A stretch of 64,000 nucleotides of DNA. Origin: a virus. The notes under the pieces were generated by a model. The model had not been told where the DNA came from and did not search any database. It saw only the letters and a list, made by a program, of their open reading frames with translations. The stretch lies in the IMG/VR virus record IMGVR_UViG_3300028384_000675, positions 1 through 64,000 of that record. One strand, given 5' to 3'. Positions 1,637-29,701 of the stretch are shown in pieces. Position numbers and translations under genes: made by a program. The stretch's first letter is position 1, and every line of letters begins with the position of its first letter.

Positions 1637-4068
1637 TATATAAAAAAATCTTCCAATGTTGCACGTGGTTCTGACGCCCACCCAACTGCATCAAGTATGG
1701 GTTCGAGCGGATCTAAAAATGTCTTAGTAAACATTGTATCATAATCAACCGAAGAAGTCAAGCCAAATTCTGGGGGCAGTACTGTGGGGAAAGCAATGAC
1801 GTTTTCTCTGATGCGGTTGGGTTTCTTAAGATAGATGAACTTGACTTTCTCTCCATCTTGTATGCGTTCATACTTCTGCTCTAGGTCAAGGTTTTGTAAC
1901 TGTCGATTGTATAGTAGAGATCCACGCGCATGTATAGGAGTTGCCTTCTTGTAGATCTCTTCTCGATCAGAGAACTTGGTAAGTTCAGACACGCCACGCG
2001 GGAACGCGATCGCCTCGGCGGGAAGTTGTTTAAACTCTGCCTTGAAGTTGCGAATAAACTCCTGCGTTTCTTCCTCAGTGCCGTTCACGATTACCTTGAA
2101 AATTTCCTGAAACTTATCGCGTACTACTTGCGGCGTGCTAGACTTGACTGCCTCAATACCCATCATCTTTAACTTAGGAGTGGCATACTGTACTCCCTCG
2201 TTATTATGCACGTTCAGAATATATCGCTTCTTAGCAACCCAGATACCACGGTCAGCGATCGCCTCGCGCTTCATGATCATGCGATTCTCATACGAGTTAG
2301 TCATGGTTGCTAGTTTATCGTATCCTTCCTCCAACTTCTTCTCGAAATGCTGTTCGCAGATTTTATCCAGGAACTTTACAGGGTTGGGCGGATCAAACTT
2401 ATCGACCAGTGGCGCCATGTTGATGTATACTGAATCGGTATCGATGGCGAGCACATAGTCCTCGTCAGTAGTCCCTAGCAGTTTATTCATCTCATGGTTT
2501 ACGACTGCCTCGGCACACTTAATAGCGCGCTGACCAGACTTGGTGACGCCCTCAGCGATACGGTGATCAAAGTAGCGGAACCACTTATTAGCGAGCGCGC
2601 CATAGAGCGAGTTCATTAGAATCTTGATACCCATTTGCTGGTTGTCAAGGTTAGCGATCTGGTTCTCCAGTTTACGCGACGGTGACTGCTCATACTCCTG
2701 CTTCTTAGCAAGCATCTGATTCTTGATGTTGACACGATTGTCATAGAACTTTCGAATAACTCGAGGGATGATACCCTCTTTATCGGTACGGTAGTTCACA
2801 CCGTTGGCAGTCTTGGTGCCCTCAGGAGCAATCGTTTCGGGTGACATATTATACTGTACAATGATGTTAGGGTACAGCGAGTTCAAGTCAAACGAAACAA
2901 CCCACTCGTGACCGCCGACGAACGGTTCTTTCACATACCCGCCGACGATCTTACCGGCATCGTGATCAACAGAAGGTTTGAGTGGGATGACAATATTATC
3001 TGGGAGCAGTTCGTTGTAGATCACAGTGTCCCAGATGTTTGTGGTGCCCAGCGCGTCAGACAGATTAGTCTTGGCAGAATATGCCATGGTTAGCACCAGA
3101 GAAATAATGCCAATCTTTTCGTCGAGGCGATCCACCAGTTCAACGTCTTTGATGTTATAGTCAATGAACTTCTGGAAGTCATGCTTATACAGAGAGTGAA
3201 GCGAACCATACTCGTCATAGGATAACTTTCGCTCGCCGAGGATAACGTGAGCGATGTGATCCAGTTTATATGACTCTTGCCGTCCAAAGGTATTCAGGGT
3301 GAACTTCTTAAACAGATCAAGGTAATCGAGTTGCGACACGCCTTCAATCTCATAAACAGTCTGTTTTCTGCCACCCAGCGTTGGGATGTCACGCGCGCGT
3401 ATGCCGCGCCACGGTGAGAACTTTTTGGTGGTCTCATCGTTCATAATGTTTTTAATACGATTGACCAGATAGGGGATATCGAACAGACGCGAGTTCCAAC
3501 CTGTCAAGACGTCAGGGCAGTTACGCTCCCACCAATCCAAGAAGTTAAACAACAGTGCTTCCTCACTGTTCGCGTGATAATACTTGACGTTCTTGTCAGA
3601 TAGGGAGGTGTCGTAGTCATACAGACCCCAGACATAATAAGTGTCAGACTGATTGTTCTTGATAGTAATGGCGATGACAGGGTGTGCCGCCTCGTCAGGT
3701 TCAGGGAACCCAGCATCAGATGCCACCTCAATATCGATCGTAGCAATATTCATCTGATCTTGATCAAACTTGACATCATGCGGGAATCGGTTAGAGATAA
3801 ACTGAGAAACGTAATTGGTCTGCCCGTGGACGCCAAACCCTTCGACGTGCTTGTACCTTTCGAGGAACTCTGTCGCCTCGCGCATGGAACCAAGTTGCAC
3901 AGGTTCAACAGGGACGCCATGAAGTGTCTGGTATTTTCCGGTGGAGTTTTTAGATTCTACAAAGAGAACTGGTTGAAAGGGGATTCGCTCTTCGATACGT
4001 TTGCCGTTTTCGAATCCACGGTAGAGGATGTTGTTGCCGAGTCGTGATACATTCGTATAAAATTTCAT
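1636..4068 (-). CDS. 43: DNA polymerase gp43 (family B)
   Basis: Replicative family B DNA polymerase with 3'-5' proofreading, 810 residues (T4 gp43 is 898). Exonuclease motif I is ATIDIEV with the DIE triad at residues 112-114; Exo II (NSRLFDIPY) is at 192-200 and Exo III (YNIKDVELV) at 304-312. Polymerase motif A (DLNSLYP) is at 394-400, motif B (KILMNSLYG) at 482-490 and motif C (AIDTDSVY) at 541-548. All catalytic acidic residues are present. It acts with clamp gp45 and loader gp44/gp62 encoded upstream. A sigma70-like promoter (4075-4103) lies just before it, isolated from the upstream Hsp20 unit by a GC-rich hairpin. The stop overlaps the next gene's ATG. Confidence 0.98.
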
Positions 4069-5388: not shown

Positions 5389-5796
5389 CTATTTACTGTT
5401 ACCTATGTTATACTTTGGACAGAGTTCCCACTCAGATTTTTCTTTAAATCCGATGATTTTGATTTGTCGAAGAGGAGCACAGTCCTTCGCAATTTCACTA
5501 TCAACAATCTGGATTAGTCCCCAGTCGGACAATAATGTAGCAATACTATTCCTTCGCTGTAGGTCAGAGAGTTCTAGGTTAGACTTCTTACCGTCAAGCA
5601 AAAATAATTCTTTGAAGTGGACGATAAAGTACCGCCCTTGTTTGTGTAGGATGTGACATGACTGAAAGAGTTTTTTCTCTTTACGTGATGCCACACCGAT
5701 ACGAGTTAATGTTTCACGAACCTTCAGAAAATCATCTGGTTCGTTGAGGGTTATCTCTAGCATATCTGCCGGAGACCAAATTTTAGTTTCTTCCAC
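5389..5796 (-). CDS. regA: RegA translational repressor
   Basis: RNA-binding repressor that blocks ribosome access to early phage mRNAs. The body matches T4 RegA closely: MLEITLNEPDDFLKVRETLTRIG, then LFQSCHILHKQGRYFIVHFKELF, a DWGLIQIVD segment and the end EWELCPKYNIGN. The longest frame begins with GTG at 5794-5796 (AGGA nine bases upstream). T4 RegA begins at the internal MLEITL, whose ATG is at 5761-5763 but lacks a clear ribosome site, so the true start is one of these two (124 or 135 residues; T4 has 122). It overlaps the end of gp62, as the adjacent gp62-regA pair does in T4. Confidence 0.96.
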   Translation of the reverse strand: MEETKIWSPADMLEITLNEPDDFLKVRETLTRIGVASRKEKKLFQSCHILHKQGRYFIVHFKELFLLDGKKSNLELSDLQRRNSIATLLSDWGLIQIVDSEIAKDCAPLRQIKIIGFKEKSEWELCPKYNIGNSK

Positions 5797-6160
5797 CTTT
5801 ATAGATCCTTGTTTTTATTGTATTCAACTGTTCTTTTGAAAGGAGGGACAAGGCATACTTTGCCTTTTCATTGCTGTAACCATAATATTCTTTTACCGCT
5901 TCCAAATCACTTTCAAGCTCAGGTTTGTTCCATTTAGAAAACCTTTTTCGCTTTCGTACAATATTTATTAAAAAGTCGAATTGGAGTTTGTTGTCCAACC
6001 CGTGATACTTATTTATAATATTTGCCGCTATCACAGTGTCTGGGAAGTAAGAAAGTGACCGATTTACCAAAAAAGAGTTATACGCTTTCGAGTCGAGATC
6101 GGTTTGCATCAGATCTTCTTTGGTAAAGTTAATCGCATTCACATAATCAAAGGGGTTCAT
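5783..6160 (-). CDS. 62: clamp loader small subunit gp62
   Basis: A 125-residue homologue of the sliding-clamp loader small subunit, the non-ATPase partner that forms the gp44/gp62 complex loading gp45. It begins MNPFDYVNAINFTKEDLM and contains SLSYFPDTVIAANIINKY and RKRKRFSKWNKPE, features of gp62 in T4-like phages. T4 gp62 is 187 residues; the shorter form is common in marine relatives. The position immediately before RegA matches T4 order. It overlaps the upstream membrane-protein gene by 4 bases (ATGA). Confidence 0.92.
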   Translation of the reverse strand: MNPFDYVNAINFTKEDLMQTDLDSKAYNSFLVNRSLSYFPDTVIAANIINKYHGLDNKLQFDFLINIVRKRKRFSKWNKPELESDLEAVKEYYGYSNEKAKYALSLLSKEQLNTIKTRIYKGGRN

Positions 6161-13937: not shown

Positions 13938-14429
13938 TTAATGAATTGAATCAGGTCCTGGGAACTTAATGATATTTGAACCGCCATCTGAATCATCTAA
14001 ACTAAAAGATTCTTCTTCTGTTTGTTTTTCCATTTCATCAATTAATGCCATGATTTCATCATGCATTTTAGCATATTGATTTTTTTGATCGTTAACAATC
14101 TGTTCTTCGGTTTGGGCCCGAGCGCGTGAATTTAAATGCATTTCTGTTCGCGCTTTCCTATACTCAGAATACAACGTTGTGTTGGGTGAAACACAAGCGA
14201 CTATATGATCTTTGGCAATAGAGATCAATTGATCTTCTCTTTCTGCCATAGTGAACCAAGGTTTGAACATGTACTTAGTATGTGATGTTCCCACAGTCTT
14301 GGTGATCATAGATAGTGCATTCTTAACCACATAATCTGTACCTTCATCTTCAGGATATTCCATCACTTGGCAAATTATTTCTTCGCCGTTGGTCATCTTA
14401 AACTGCATAATTCCTGGGTACATCATCAT
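13938..14429 (-). CDS. conserved T4-like hypothetical protein
   Basis: A 163-residue protein with a beta-rich N-terminal half (MQFKMTNGEEIICQVMEYPE, then YVVKNALSMITKTVG) that has the look of a small barrel such as an Sm-like fold, followed by a charged helix (about residues 95-145) and a disordered Asp/Ser-rich end. A similar protein lies between UvsW and gp55 in other marine T4-like phages as far as I recall; its function is unknown to me. The ATG overlaps the UvsW stop (TAATG). The first three codons are ATG ATG ATG, so the exact start is uncertain by two residues. Confidence 0.82.
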   Translation of the reverse strand: MMMYPGIMQFKMTNGEEIICQVMEYPEDEGTDYVVKNALSMITKTVGTSHTKYMFKPWFTMAEREDQLISIAKDHIVACVSPNTTLYSEYRKARTEMHLNSRARAQTEEQIVNDQKNQYAKMHDEIMALIDEMEKQTEEESFSLDDSDGGSNIIKFPGPDSIH

Positions 14430-15904
14430 TAAATTTCTACCTGAGTAATTTTATAGGGGAATTTCTCTTTAGTATATATCTTAATTCTTTCACCGCTATG
14501 CAGCAGCGTAAAGTTCTTCTTGGACTTCCAGTGAAGGTCGTCCGCGATGTCATATAGTTTAGTCACCGAACCGTCATCAGACAAACGAAGACCCCGACCT
14601 ATCGATTGGAGTACTCGGATTTGACTTTTTGATGGAGATGCAAAAATAACGTTATGCAGATTTTTGATATTAATACCAGTGGAGAAAGTGCCCAGAGAAG
14701 CGAGTATAATGCTATTCTTTTGCTTGTCCACAATATTCCGGATTTGTTCGCGGTCTGTTGTTTTTGTTTCGCCTGAGACGAAAAAGAGTCGTTGTCCATT
14801 TTGTAATCTCGACTCAATTAAATCCCGTAGACCCTTGCCGTGGCGATCCACAAGGTTAAACAAAACAAGTGTATTTCCAGTTTGATTGACTGCAAGGTTT
14901 GCGATAAACTTGTTCCGCTTTTCATATGTGACGAGGAAATCGATTTCATCTTGGTAACTCCTATTCTCTGTCGGTCTACAAAACTCTTCGGCATACTTTA
15001 ACAATATGATATCAATGTCGAGTTCCGCGAGCGCTTCTTTCTTTTGAAGTTCGTGCGTCGTGATGACTTTCTTAACAGGTCCAAACAGTCCTTCAAGAAC
15101 TAATTTGTGGACCTGCGTACCATCTAACGTACCCGTTGTGCCGAAACGATATTCAGCATTGATCGCTTTATTCATAATCGAAGACAGAGACTTGGACTTG
15201 AATCCATGTACTTCGTCGCCAATGATACAACCGAACTGATGAAACCAGTTAGGGTGTAATTTGTAGATCGACTGCCATGTTGATATGACAATCGGGCATT
15301 CCGTTTCCTTATCTTTTCCTGAGTAGATGCGGTGACAATTTGTTTCTACATCATACCCGTACTCAGAGAAGTCTTTGTACATCTGCTCTACGAGTGATGT
15401 GGTCGGAACAACAAGGAGAATTTTTTTATTGCGGTTTTCCAAATACCAGCGCGATAGCAGGTAAATGATAAATGATTTACCCGAACCTGTCGGGGAAACG
15501 AGAATACATCTTTTGTTCTCAATGCCATGCGCTATAGCATCGTATTGGTAGTCGCGAGGTTTGAACGGCAGGTTTAGAGTGTCGAACCACTCCATTGTTT
15601 TCATATGATTTACGGAGTTTTTATCATACGGGTATCCATATGGACCCTCTTCAACCTTGATACCATACCCACGCTGTATGGCAAACTTCTTGATTGCCCA
15701 GTACAGTCCTGCGTTGATCTCGCCGTTGGTGCGGTTGAACATACGGATCTTTCCGTCCCACACCTTCTTTTTTACTGCTGGCATAAACTTAGCGCCAGGA
15801 ACCTCGAATGTAAAATATTCTGACAACTCAGAGACGACGTGTGGCGCGCACTCTATCATCTGCAGCATCGAATAATCTTTCATTCTCAGTTTAATTATTT
15901 CCAT
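14429..15904 (-). CDS. uvsW: UvsW recombination helicase
   Basis: Superfamily 2 DNA/RNA helicase that unwinds branched intermediates and R-loops, moving replication from origin-dependent to recombination-dependent mode. 491 residues when started at the ATG overlapping the UvsY stop (15902-15904), which begins MEIIKLRMKDYSML; T4 has 503. The N-terminal DNA-binding domain contains VKKKVWDGKIRMFNR. Walker A is VSPTGSGKSFIIY, motif II is IIGDEVHGF, motif III includes GTTGTL, and motif VI is QSIGRGLRLSDDG. Confidence 0.96.
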   Translation of the reverse strand: MEIIKLRMKDYSMLQMIECAPHVVSELSEYFTFEVPGAKFMPAVKKKVWDGKIRMFNRTNGEINAGLYWAIKKFAIQRGYGIKVEEGPYGYPYDKNSVNHMKTMEWFDTLNLPFKPRDYQYDAIAHGIENKRCILVSPTGSGKSFIIYLLSRWYLENRNKKILLVVPTTSLVEQMYKDFSEYGYDVETNCHRIYSGKDKETECPIVISTWQSIYKLHPNWFHQFGCIIGDEVHGFKSKSLSSIMNKAINAEYRFGTTGTLDGTQVHKLVLEGLFGPVKKVITTHELQKKEALAELDIDIILLKYAEEFCRPTENRSYQDEIDFLVTYEKRNKFIANLAVNQTGNTLVLFNLVDRHGKGLRDLIESRLQNGQRLFFVSGETKTTDREQIRNIVDKQKNSIILASLGTFSTGINIKNLHNVIFASPSKSQIRVLQSIGRGLRLSDDGSVTKLYDIADDLHWKSKKNFTLLHSGERIKIYTKEKFPYKITQVEI

Positions 15905-16347
15905 TAAAATCCTGCTTCGAACTTCTTCCACTCAAGGGCATTACGAATCGTTTGGTGCCGCCACTTGATGCTTTCGAGGATCTCCTTCAACGTTTCTATC
16001 ATAGTATTTAGGTATGCCATTTTCGCCTCGCTGGCAACCAACTCTGGGTCTGCCTCGACGTAATGCTGCATCTCACCCTTGAGTATACGCAACCCGTCAA
16101 ATGGATCGGGGTCCCAACCTAGTTTTTCAATCTCGTGTTGATCAAGTTTGCCATTATACCATAACCACTTATTCTTCATGAGTTCTTTCTGTTTGAACTC
16201 CGCGTCCTTCAACTTGAGTTTGTACGTTGAAAGCAACTCGAGATACTTGGCATGTAGTTTTGGGGTCTCTACTGAACTCACGTCCAGTTTGTTAAATTCA
16301 ATTTGCGAGTCAGATTTCCATTCGGCATGCAACTGCTCTAGGTTCAT
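15904..16347 (-). CDS. uvsY: UvsY recombination mediator
   Basis: Recombination mediator that helps UvsX displace the ssDNA-binding protein. 147 residues (T4 137). It is almost entirely helical: MNLEQLHAEWKSDSQIEFNK, then KYLELLSTYKLKLKDAEFK, a KWLWYNGKLDQHE segment and the C-terminal WRHQTIRNALEWKKFEAGF, which matches the T4 end (RAFEAGK). The stop overlaps the UvsW start. The order gp3-UvsY-UvsW follows that of marine T4-like phages. Confidence 0.94.
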   Translation of the reverse strand: MNLEQLHAEWKSDSQIEFNKLDVSSVETPKLHAKYLELLSTYKLKLKDAEFKQKELMKNKWLWYNGKLDQHEIEKLGWDPDPFDGLRILKGEMQHYVEADPELVASEAKMAYLNTMIETLKEILESIKWRHQTIRNALEWKKFEAGF

Positions 16348-16387: not shown

Positions 16388-16882
16388 CTATGCAAGAGTG
16401 AAATAGTCAAATCTAAATGTGACTGGGAAAGTAATATATTCTCCGGTTGAGGTAGAAGAGAAGTTAACATTTCCGATGTTGATGGGTGTAGCGTTCACAT
16501 AACGAAACGCTCGGTTTGGATTATTCGAACTGGTGAGTATGAACAGAGTGATATCCTGATAAGATGGTGGTAATGGTTCTTGCGTGATATTCAGACGGTG
16601 ATTGTATTCGACCATGCCTTCAAACCACAGATACATTTCTTGATAGACATTCATGTCTTCGTCCATCAACACATCGAATGTCAACTGTCCAAACTGCAAC
16701 GACTCACCCGAAAATGGAATTGGAGTTGCCTTCCGGAAGTTCACCTCTGACGTGTCAATGTTTAGATCGGGGTGTTGTACAGATTGCGCAAAAAACTCGA
16801 GGTTCGAATAGTTCTCTCGATTTATAACAATCTTGAAACCATTTGGTTGCAGGAAGTTAGTTCCGCACTCAAAGTTTGCCAT
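16388..16882 (-). CDS. 3: tail terminator protein gp3
   Basis: A 164-residue tail-tube-fold protein starting MANFECGTNFLQPNGFKIVI. It matches T4 gp3 (176 residues) in the central strand-helix FDVLMDEDMNVYQEMYLWFEGM, the strand DITLFILTSSNNPN and the end FPVTFRFDYFTLA. gp3 caps the tail tube at the neck end and fixes tail length. The related tube protein gp19 is encoded at 27287. The ATG at 16880-16882 is preferred to an upstream TTG. A perfect late promoter lies 30 bases upstream and overlaps the gp23 stop. Confidence 0.85.
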   Translation of the reverse strand: MANFECGTNFLQPNGFKIVINRENYSNLEFFAQSVQHPDLNIDTSEVNFRKATPIPFSGESLQFGQLTFDVLMDEDMNVYQEMYLWFEGMVEYNHRLNITQEPLPPSYQDITLFILTSSNNPNRAFRYVNATPINIGNVNFSSTSTGEYITFPVTFRFDYFTLA

Positions 16883-16911: not shown

Positions 16912-16919
16912 TATTTATA
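16912..16919 (-). promoter_or_regulatory. T4-type late promoter of gp3
   Basis: Exact TATAAATA on the minus strand. Its first TAA (16915-16917) is also the stop codon of the gp23 frame, so the two elements share bases. Confidence 0.75.
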
Positions 16920-18240
16920 CGCAAAAAAAAGGGCACCGAAGTGCCCCAAAAAACGATCCCTTGTGAGGATTCTTATTTTTATGGTTAGACGCCATACCAT
17001 AACGAGTCTTAAACCCGATACGTGGTTGGAAGTCATTCTCACCAACTGCACGTACCATCTGCAGCGGTACGTATGGGCAGTAGAACATACCAGCGTCATA
17101 TGGGTTAGTACCCTTATAACCAACTGTCACGTAGTCAGCGACCGCATATGGATCGATGTATACGCGTGTACGACCGTTCAATACACCAGCGAACGTGTTA
17201 CCAGTGTCATCAACTTGCAAGTTAGTTGACAATGCTGGAGTGTAGTCAAGCATACCAGCAGCAACAAGAGCAGTAGCAACATCAGAAGAACAAACTACGA
17301 TGTTACCCTTACCGCGACGTGTTTCTTTCGCGATAACGTTTGCTTCACGCTCGAGTTGAACCAACAGACCCTTGAACTTCTCAACAGACCAACGACCGTC
17401 AGCGTCAGTTGAAAGGTCAAATACGCCCTGATTAGTGACGTTAGATTGACGACAACCGATCTTCGCTTGAGCGTTGATTGTGCGGATAACTTCGCGGTTG
17501 ATTTCTGCGAGGATTTCTGTTGACAGAATGTTTGCCAACTCAGTCTCAGCGTCAAGACCGTGAATTGCCTTCAAGTCCTGAGCAAGTTCGAGAGTGTATT
17601 CTGCCTTCAACGCGCGCGAACGTGCTGTAACAGTTGACTTCTCGATTGTGAAACCCATCTCAGCAAAATCATTGCCACCAGGGGTGCCAAGTGCTTCTGC
17701 GTCAGCAGTCTGGTAACCCAGTGATGCTGGTGGTGTACCAACGCCATCTGGACCAGTGTTTGAAGCGACGTCTGAATCTGGAACACCAGCAAGACCAGAT
17801 GGTCCTGTTGTCTGAGAGTTCGAAGAATCGCCTGAGTATGGTGCTACTGGCTCTTGGAATAATGCCTCATCGCCAGCGGTTGCGCCGCCCTTAGTTGTCT
17901 GGTAGCGTGACTTCATTGCGAAGATCAGACCAGTTGGACCTGTCATTGGCTGAACGCCAGCAAGGTCATATGCCATCAGGTTTGGCATTGCGCGACGTAC
18001 AAGTGCGATCAAAACTGGATTCCAGTTTGCGCCTGTTACGCCATCAGCAGCACCTGTTACTGATGCGTTAGAGTTACCTGCAACTTCATTGAGTTGTGCT
18101 TCCTCGCGGAATGCAACTTCTTGGTTCTCAAGAATTGCAGCAGTTACAGCACGACGGTGAGCGTCTTTGATTTCACCCGCGCTAGTTTCGTCAAGAACTG
18201 GACTCCACTTCTCGACCAGCTTATCGTAAGATACTGTCAT
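16915..18240 (-). CDS. 23: major capsid protein gp23
   Basis: HK97-fold major head protein, 441 residues by this frame. Typical stretches are NWNPVLIALVRRAMPNLMAY and GPTGLIFAMKSRY near the N terminus, VTARSRALKAEYTLELAQDL and the C-terminal DAGMFYCPYVPLQMVRAVGE. In T4 the prohead protease gp21 removes about 65 N-terminal residues; here QLNE at residues 49-52 is a likely cleavage site. The end is odd: after RYGMASNHKNKNPHKGS the frame runs through a perfect terminator hairpin and its T run before reaching a stop. The last 12 residues (FFGALRCPFFCV) are the translated terminator, unlike any capsid protein I know. Confidence 0.97.
   Translation of the reverse strand: MTVSYDKLVEKWSPVLDETSAGEIKDAHRRAVTAAILENQEVAFREEAQLNEVAGNSNASVTGAADGVTGANWNPVLIALVRRAMPNLMAYDLAGVQPMTGPTGLIFAMKSRYQTTKGGATAGDEALFQEPVAPYSGDSSNSQTTGPSGLAGVPDSDVASNTGPDGVGTPPASLGYQTADAEALGTPGGNDFAEMGFTIEKSTVTARSRALKAEYTLELAQDLKAIHGLDAETELANILSTEILAEINREVIRTINAQAKIGCRQSNVTNQGVFDLSTDADGRWSVEKFKGLLVQLEREANVIAKETRRGKGNIVVCSSDVATALVAAGMLDYTPALSTNLQVDDTGNTFAGVLNGRTRVYIDPYAVADYVTVGYKGTNPYDAGMFYCPYVPLQMVRAVGENDFQPRIGFKTRYGMASNHKNKNPHKGSFFGALRCPFFCV
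16923..16946 (-). terminator. intrinsic terminator inside the gp23 frame
   Basis: Minus strand: GGGCAC (16941-16946), loop TTCG, GTGCCC (16931-16936), then eight T (16923-16930). A textbook terminator, but it lies upstream of the gp23 stop at 16915-16917, so a transcript ended here would have no in-frame stop codon. Confidence 0.9.
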
Positions 18241-20685: not shown

Positions 20686-22533
20686 TTACTTACCCATAAC
20701 TGTAACTTTGACGTTGGTAAGGTCGACCAATGAACGGATGTTCAAAGTGTCCTTATCAACTGCTTCGATGTCGACAGAGATCTGAGAGTTGTCAGAATCC
20801 ATAACGTTAACAACGAAGTTCGCTGAAGAAGCGAGGTCAAGGTTGTGAGCAACTGAACGTGGTACACCTGCAGTAACCGCAACTGTAGAGTTGTGGCACT
20901 TGATGTGGTCACGCGCTTCGAGGACTGCAGTACGACCTTGGAGATCAAGGATGTCTGAGTCGTTAGAAACGATTTCTGATTGCAACTCGTTAACTGCACC
21001 AGCAAGGTCAGCGGCGTCAGTTGTAAGAGCAGTGCCGAAACCAGCAAATGTCTGCATCGCAGCGATGTCAGAGTCATTTCCAGTGATGCGCGCATCGTTA
21101 GTATCAACTTCACCATGGATCTCGTTGATTGCAGCAGCAAGATCTTGTGCTACTGTATCAAGCGGAGTACCTTCGCCAGTGAATCCTTGCAGAGAAGTGA
21201 TCGAAGCAAGGTTAGCAGCGATGTCAGAATCGTTACCGAGGATTGCTGACTCAGCATCACCCATACGTCCTTGAAGAGAAAGGATATCTGAGTCGTTACC
21301 TTCGATAGCAGATTCTGCTGCGCCCATACGTCCTTCAAGAGAAAGGATGTCCGAGTCATTGCCCGCAATTTGCGTGAATGCAGACGCGATGTCTGAATCA
21401 TTTGCTGTAATTTGCGCTTGAAGGTGTGCGATGTCGGAATCGACGCCTGAGAGAATATCACCTTCTACCTCAGTGATGCGAGCGTCGAGAGCAGCGATAT
21501 CGGAATCGTTAGCGATGATTGCAGCAAGGTTGGCAGCAGCTTGAGCAGCGTTTGCAGCGATGTCTGAATCGTTACCTTCGATAGCAGCAAAGTTAGCATC
21601 TACTTCACCGTGCAATTCGTTGATTGCAGCAGCGAGATCAGTAGCAACTGTGTCGAGTACAGTGCCTTCGCCAGTAAATACCTGAAGGGAATCTACTTCA
21701 CCTTCAACAGCAGACATACGAGTGTCAGCAGAGTCTGAACGACCTACCAACTCATTTACAGCACCAGCAAGAGTAGTTGCTGTTGTAGTAAGTGTAGTGC
21801 CTTCGCCTACGAATGTTTCAAGAGCGTCGACTTCTGTGTCTGCGGAGTCCGCGCGGGATACCAACTCGTTGATTGCTGCAGCAAGATCAGTTGCTGTTGT
21901 ACTGAGGGCAGTACCTTCGCCGGTAAAGGTTTGCAGAGTTTCGATGTCGCTAGCATTGTCGCTGATGTCTTGCTGGTTTTGCGCGACGTCAGAAGCGAGT
22001 TGAGAACCCGCCAAAGTTGCTGGAGTGACAGCGAGTGAAGTGCTTACACCAGAATCAACTTCTGTTTGAGTAGCAATCTCGATGATACCTGCTTGATCAG
22101 TTGTAGCAGCATCGATGTTACGGTTGAAGACTGTTGCTTCAGTTGAAGATGTGAAGAGAACGATATCGCCTACTTCAACCTTCGCGCTTGGCGAGAACGT
22201 TACGCCAGTCTTAGCGAGATCGCCAGCAGCATCAACTACATACTGATAACCTTTGATCGCGTCAACTGATGCAGTGTCTGCGTTAGTTGGGTTGATAACG
22301 CCTTTAAATACTACGTCTCCGTCGATATCAGACGATACGCTTGAAAACTTTACGCCGTCCCAGATGCGAATTGCTTGGAGGGTAGTATCAAAGATGATTA
22401 AACCAGTGTTAGCTGCAGAAAGTTGTCCCGCGAGAACACTAGCTTCAGCAGATGTGACGTTTTGAATACGCGCATCTACTAATTGACCTACTTTTACAAG
22501 GTCAATGTCGTGGTAAAATTGTTTTGTTGCCAT
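20686..22533 (-). CDS. tail or head fibre with heptad-like NDSDI repeats
   Basis: A 615-residue fibre protein. Residues 1-150 are a globular N-terminal part (MATKQFYHDIDLVKVGQLVD, later YQYVVDAAGDL). Residues 180-530 are an extended repeat region in which GNDSDI or ANDSDI alternates with amphipathic stretches (LQGRMGDAESAI) and longer linkers (TFTGEGTALSTTATDLAAAI), the pattern of a trimeric coiled-coil or beta-helical shaft. The C-terminal 85 residues (starting near HIKCHNSTVAVTAG) form a small beta domain, likely the tip or attachment cap. The binding target is unknown. It ends at tandem terminators. Confidence 0.85.
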   Translation of the reverse strand: MATKQFYHDIDLVKVGQLVDARIQNVTSAEASVLAGQLSAANTGLIIFDTTLQAIRIWDGVKFSSVSSDIDGDVVFKGVINPTNADTASVDAIKGYQYVVDAAGDLAKTGVTFSPSAKVEVGDIVLFTSSTEATVFNRNIDAATTDQAGIIEIATQTEVDSGVSTSLAVTPATLAGSQLASDVAQNQQDISDNASDIETLQTFTGEGTALSTTATDLAAAINELVSRADSADTEVDALETFVGEGTTLTTTATTLAGAVNELVGRSDSADTRMSAVEGEVDSLQVFTGEGTVLDTVATDLAAAINELHGEVDANFAAIEGNDSDIAANAAQAAANLAAIIANDSDIAALDARITEVEGDILSGVDSDIAHLQAQITANDSDIASAFTQIAGNDSDILSLEGRMGAAESAIEGNDSDILSLQGRMGDAESAILGNDSDIAANLASITSLQGFTGEGTPLDTVAQDLAAAINEIHGEVDTNDARITGNDSDIAAMQTFAGFGTALTTDAADLAGAVNELQSEIVSNDSDILDLQGRTAVLEARDHIKCHNSTVAVTAGVPRSVAHNLDLASSANFVVNVMDSDNSQISVDIEAVDKDTLNIRSLVDLTNVKVTVMGK

Positions 22534-27825: not shown

Positions 27826-29631
27826 TTATACAATTCCAACAACTTCTTCGAAGTCTACGCCAGTTCTAACTGCTACGAAGTTCAATGTAACGTAGTTGAT
27901 AGAACGCGCAGGTTTCACGAAGATAGATGCGACGAATGAATTGTTGTCGATAACATCAGGCGTGTTGTTTGTTTCGTCACAAACTACACGGAAATCGCTG
28001 ATGCCACGACGACCCTTGATCTCACGCAGGAATGGTTCTACAATGTTAACAAACTCAGCACGAGTAAACTCGTCGTTGAATTCGAACATAACACCTTGCG
28101 CTGCTTGCTTGATAGCACGCTCCATCACTAGGAACAAACGGCGAACGTTGATTCGGTCGAATGCTGATGGGCGACCCAACTTAGTCTTATCTCCATAGAG
28201 CAAGATACCCTGTCCAGGAAGGTTGACGATTGGGTTAACAGATGCTTTGTACAGCGTATCGCGCTGAGTCTTAGTTGCGCTGTATGCCAATGAAGTCACG
28301 CCAAGGTATTGACCACGACGCGAACCTGCAGGCGAGAACCATGGTGCAGAAGTGAAGTCAGTTGATGCCATCAAACCTGCAGTTGAAGATGCTGCTGGGA
28401 TAAACGTATACTCATCATTGTACTTGTCATAAACTTTCAAGAAGTTATTATCGAGTACGAGGTATGATGATGCTACCTGTGCGTCTGCGAATGCCTTGAC
28501 TGAGGCGACAACTGTAGTTGGATTGTTAATACCAACAACTGCGTCACGGTGCGGAGAAGAAACAACAACACAATCTTTACGGTCTGTCGCAGTTGCCACA
28601 AGGTCAGTAATGATTGCTGTTTGATCATCTTGAGATGCCATTTGCGGTGCGATTAAGAAATCTACCTGAATCGCATCGGCGTCTTCGTATTGATTGAATG
28701 CTGTTAAATAACCATCCTTACCGACTGTTACACTAGAATCACGACCGCCCCGAGTAAGCGAGAAGTCAAGAACGTTATCTGTACCAGAAGCGCTGTCCCA
28801 CGCTGAAGCAGAAGTCAATTCTGCGTCTGTTAAATCTGCACCCCATACGTATGACGAACGATCGTTCAATACGTCAAGAATGTAGTTAGAAGAACCATCG
28901 ACAGTCTTAGCATCTGTTGCCAATGAAACGAATGGGAATGTTTCTAGAACAGTACCCTTCGAACCAGTGAGAACGCCATCTTCATCGACAACTACAACGT
29001 GCGCTTCATCATATGCATCTGCACCGTCTTGCGACAGAGCAGCAACGTAAGATGAAGTTGTTGGAGCAGCGTCGAATGCGCCGGAATATGCCCAGTTTTC
29101 GAATGCTGAATCAGCAGCGATCGCTGGAACGTAACCAGGAGCACCTGCTGAATCGCCAACTTGATCTACAGCAGCAGTTGCTGGACAAATAGAAACTGCG
29201 AGAGAGTTACCGACTGAACCAGGATACTTTGCAATGATCTGGTTATCGCTGAAGTCACCGCCATCAAACGCATCGCGATTCTTGACTTGAATGTCAATCG
29301 TTTCCGCCGCTGAGTCTTGTGTAGTTGCAAAGGTTGCTGCCGCACTGTAGTCAGAATCTGCTACTGCGCGAGTTACAAAGGTGTTTGTAGAATATTTGAG
29401 GAAGTATGCCGCAGACAAAAAGTCCGTGGAAGACGCTCCTCCTGAGAGAGAGGGTGCACCAAAATTCGCTGCCAATTCCGCTTCGTTACCGACAAGGATT
29501 GGTTGCTCCGCTGGTCCCCAATTAAAATCTCCGACTAACGCGCCAGTTGATGATGTAACTGCCGGAACAACGCCCGACAGATCAATCTCTTTGACGACGA
29601 TATTAGGAGACTCAGACAATTTGAGTGCCAT
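27826..29631 (-). CDS. 18: tail sheath protein gp18
   Basis: Contractile sheath subunit, 601 residues (T4 659). It starts MALKLSESPNIVVKEIDLSG, as T4-like sheaths do. The middle holds the variable outward domains (residues about 90-330). The conserved C-terminal core is clear: NLPGQGILLYGDKTKLGRPS, then RINVRRLFLVMERAIKQAAQ and FNDEFTRAEFVNIVEPFLRE. A late promoter lies 71 bases upstream in the gap after gp17. Confidence 0.97.
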   Translation of the reverse strand: MALKLSESPNIVVKEIDLSGVVPAVTSSTGALVGDFNWGPAEQPILVGNEAELAANFGAPSLSGGASSTDFLSAAYFLKYSTNTFVTRAVADSDYSAAATFATTQDSAAETIDIQVKNRDAFDGGDFSDNQIIAKYPGSVGNSLAVSICPATAAVDQVGDSAGAPGYVPAIAADSAFENWAYSGAFDAAPTTSSYVAALSQDGADAYDEAHVVVVDEDGVLTGSKGTVLETFPFVSLATDAKTVDGSSNYILDVLNDRSSYVWGADLTDAELTSASAWDSASGTDNVLDFSLTRGGRDSSVTVGKDGYLTAFNQYEDADAIQVDFLIAPQMASQDDQTAIITDLVATATDRKDCVVVSSPHRDAVVGINNPTTVVASVKAFADAQVASSYLVLDNNFLKVYDKYNDEYTFIPAASSTAGLMASTDFTSAPWFSPAGSRRGQYLGVTSLAYSATKTQRDTLYKASVNPIVNLPGQGILLYGDKTKLGRPSAFDRINVRRLFLVMERAIKQAAQGVMFEFNDEFTRAEFVNIVEPFLREIKGRRGISDFRVVCDETNNTPDVIDNNSFVASIFVKPARSINYVTLNFVAVRTGVDFEEVVGIV

Positions 29632-29701
29632 AATCGTGTCCTTTTTTTCGTTAAGTTATGATAAGATTTCATAATACGGTGTATTTCTTTCAATCATTCA
29701 T

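Follow-up and report, generated by a model that had tools for sequence, protein, structure and literature searches.

The closest named counterparts of the T4-like major capsid protein gene (gp23) considered here are found in marine T4-like phages such as Phage C48C1 (OQ984149), Pelagibacter phage HTVC008M and Synechococcus myophages, with which its product shares 57-67% amino acid identity over residues 1-419. The uncultivated relatives resemble the locus further in that a terminator follows gp23 and, in many of them, a TATAAATA box precedes the next gene. Whereas gp23 in the relatives stops before the terminator, the final 30 residues and the stop codon are absent from the copy described here. 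It is encoded in the window, a stretch of 64,000 nucleotides covering positions 1 to 64,000 of the IMG/VR virus record IMGVR_UViG_3300028384_000675, which is an uncultivated metagenome contig of 92,946 bp. The three nearest contigs, IMGVR_UViG_3300017719_000513 (L082/L085/L129), 3300049810_000202 (L083/L130) and 3300017752_001509 (L084/L131), share 96.7-97.3% nucleotide identity with the window over the 2.4 kb leading up to the junction between positions 16,982 and 16,983. The first of these matches the window at approximately 97% nucleotide identity through gp23 and gp22 and carries the same hairpin and box. All three nearest contigs encode an intact gp23 with the C-terminus NPFVG..NQYYRIFRVDNILA, followed by the stop codon, some 40 nucleotides, the same terminator and then the promoter. 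In L082 the same hairpin is located after the gp23 stop codon, at positions 3,119-3,136.

In the window, the gp23 open reading frame occupies positions 16,915-18,240 on the minus strand, running from an ATG at 18,240 to a TAA at 16,917-16,915 and coding for 441 amino acids. The earlier note had observed that this frame has no stop codon before a hairpin and its T tract and that its TAA lies in the promoter box of the next gene, and direct reading of the minus strand bears this out, with each element in the position given for it. The hairpin (minus strand, 16,931-16,947) has the form GGGGCAC-TTCG-GTGCCC, with a closing G-U pair formed with position 16,930, and is followed by an eight-T tract (minus strand, 16,923-16,930). 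It thus has the GC-rich stem and T run of an intrinsic (rho-independent) terminator, its folding energy is -12.7 kcal/mol (z -2.9), and by number of pairs it is the foremost terminator-like site on the minus strand between positions 14,000 and 22,000, making it a credible predicted terminator. The TATAAATA box (minus strand, 16,912-16,919), which contains the terminal TAA of the frame, is located upstream of a gp3-like gene (minus strand, 16,388-16,879) that begins with an ATG and is the next gene after gp23; within the nearest named phage, it matches a stretch where a 'tail tube' gene is annotated. As 13 copies of the box occur in the window against 2.2 expected, the reading of this motif as a late promoter made in the earlier note is sound. 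A stop codon inside such a promoter is unremarkable and to be expected, since TATAAATAA yields TAA in two of the three reading frames.

Alignment of the window to the three nearest contigs accounts for the unusual gene end. In blastn comparisons with each of them, the alignment splits cleanly in two at 16,982/16,983, where the window is without 97 bp that these relatives have kept. The absent block (junction at 16,982-16,983, minus strand) covers the final two bases of codon 420, all of codons 421-449, the stop codon and five further nucleotides, so that codon 419 is joined straight to the point 5 nt beyond the normal stop. Residues 1-419 of the predicted protein are genuine gp23 sequence, while residues 420-441 are translated from non-coding DNA: the tail of 22 misplaced codons, HKNKNPHKGSFFGALRCPFFCV (minus strand, 16,918-16,983), corresponds to the 3' untranslated DNA, terminator and promoter of the relatives. 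The frame crosses the terminator and ends in the promoter because the block holding the gene end and its stop is missing. The absence of the conserved last 30 residues had escaped the earlier note. The alignment of gp23 ends in related phages, a check that the note had itself put forward, is what settled the cause.

Of the three explanations that had been offered for the gene end, only a recent alteration through loss of the stop codon was upheld, and this in kind, given that the loss took codons 420-449 and five bases beyond the stop along with it. The proposal of a single wrong base just before the hairpin, which would mask a normal stop codon, has next to no likelihood. It goes back to the earlier note and has no tool result in its favour, and it is refuted by the alignment, as an entire coding block with its normal stop is gone and no one-base change could restore the conserved end. 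The third explanation, in which ribosomes trailing the polymerase prevent the hairpin from forming, is not supported, since all 85 relatives keep a normal gp23 end, with those listed stopping before the terminator.

The wider set of relatives shows the same boundary. Their alignments to the window gp23 nearly all end at query residue 419, beyond which the relatives continue with NPFVG...NQYYRIFRVDNILA or a variant thereof, a stop codon and then the terminator, with the TATAAATA box in many. Among the relatives listed, the gp23 stop precedes the terminator, and in none is there a non-stop or terminator-overlapping arrangement. A C-terminal strand with the pattern N-x-Y-Y/F-R, of which the Y-Y/F-R portion is kept in all 85 distinct complete gp23 ends from viral contigs, is absent from the window protein. 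In a profile of the relatives, this strand aligns with the very end of the T4 gp23 chain (up to residue 520 of 521). The window product shows a significant match to the Pfam family PF07068 (E 5.5e-141), spanning profile positions 2-354 of 376 only, whereas the intact relatives span positions 2-376, leaving the window copy without the last 22 positions. The window gene is gp23 by descent, yet damaged.

Taken together, these comparisons make it very probable that a T4-like gp23 lost 97 bp from its 3' end, so that the reading frame now continues into the gene's own untranslated sequence, and that the result is not an evolved gene ending. Under such a deletion, both the run through the terminator and the stop within the next promoter would be passive results, the capsid protein produced would be without its terminal strand, and transcripts ended at the terminator would form non-stop messages. 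The arrangement is an ordinary one, the trace of a 97-bp loss and not a non-stop message or an overlap with the terminator by design, and is of no importance as a mechanism. It does offer a caution, in that a lone uncultivated viral contig may hold a broken hallmark gene that mimics unusual gene regulation; comparison of the gene end with those of near relatives resolves such cases in a single step. Nothing specific to this gp23 case was found in the literature.

Codons 1-419 of gp23 are under strong purifying selection, with a dN/dS of approximately 0.04. Between the window and L082 these codons differ by 41 synonymous and five nonsynonymous changes (dN/dS 0.036), and the corresponding ratio against L083 is 0.034. 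This ratio implies that gp23 worked until very recently at most and that the damage is either very recent or non-biological. It also bears on the proposal of a genuine deletion that has become fixed in a living phage, in which the truncated gp23 works, ribosomes hold the terminator open and the stop codon is drawn from the gp3 promoter region. The frame is indeed open as far as the TAA in the promoter box, and the ends of the deletion lack the repeat that a simple assembly collapse requires. The remainder of gp23 is, however, without any sign of relaxed or changed selection, and the lost strand is kept by 85 of 85 relatives and has its match in T4 gp23. Structure models point the same way: AlphaFold gave a pLDDT of 65.3 and a pTM of 0.59 for the intact gp23 of a relative (the other four models 50-57) as opposed to 50.5 and 0.43 for the window protein with the same alignment, although both are modest, indeed poor, models. 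The intact model has a predicted terminal strand at residues 436-445 and, as expected, was placed by Foldseek with T4 gp23 and gp24, followed by HK97-fold capsids. The poorer modelling of the truncated protein lends weak support to its being defective. A fixed deletion in a living phage is accordingly highly improbable, and the fuller version, in which a living T4-like phage has a gp23 without the terminal strand that ends within the terminator and next promoter and thereby couples translation to terminator read-through, is slightly more improbable still.

Similarly improbable is a second complete gp23 in the same genome, or a missing end supplied from elsewhere through a split gene or translational bypass, with the present copy perhaps in decay. 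The genome is probably partly missing, the contig being 92.9 kb long against 156 kb for the nearest named phage, which leaves room for such a copy. Against this, the 92,946-bp contig contains no further Gp23 match, and neither the lost C-terminal segment of 30 residues nor the block, taken as 98 nt, has a copy in the six frames of the window or across the whole contig. A programmed frameshift or translational bypass would place the missing segment nearby in another frame, and it is absent from the contig altogether. Furthermore, each of the relative records searched has at most one Gp23 match, most of these records being short fragments, and codons 1-419 are free of decay.

With the 97-bp loss as the preferred explanation, its origin may lie in a library-preparation or assembly error, or in a real variant from the population sampled that is either defective or of very recent origin. 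A technical origin is moderately favoured, a real defective molecule is a substantial but lesser prospect, and other origins have a small share. No direct repeat of at least 6 nt is shared by the deletion ends in L082 and there are no N bases in the contig, which make a plain repeat collapse unlikely and would be compatible with a junction truly present in the DNA. The candidate sources are a chimeric molecule, a misjoin made during gap closing and a real defective genome. A chimera of two strains at the junction was considered and is not needed, as the next 60 or so nucleotides (leader, terminator and promoter) are still nearly identical between the window and its nearest relatives, and the switch in identity comes later, at gp3. 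A scan of viral contigs for the 18-nt junction sequence gave four matches, none of them within gp23, in collections that may omit the window's own closest records. When the neighbouring genes were compared with L129 for further frame breaks, the other gaps proved small and mostly compensated or in non-coding DNA, and no gap apart from the gp23 deletion takes away the end of a gene.

Several further features were observed in the window and its relatives. The gp3-like gene shares only 77-86% nucleotide identity with L129-L131 in 200-nt windows, while its flanks share 90-98%, which suggests a divergent cassette and a possible single-gene exchange. In the close relative L133, a 154-amino acid open reading frame resembling an HNH homing endonuclease is located between uvsY and uvsW (minus strand, 5,403-5,867); this frame is absent from the window, where uvsY and uvsW overlap near 15,904-15,931. 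At positions 29,296-29,329 the window has 34 nt where L129 has 85 nt, the 51-nt difference being a multiple of three and falling within the open reading frame at 27,826-29,655. A repetitive protein of 615 amino acids is encoded at 20,686-22,533 on the minus strand and contains many repeats of the 'GNDSDI' and 'LAAAINEL' types, which give rise to multiple off-diagonal matches both to the relatives and to a site at 83.1 kb on the same contig.
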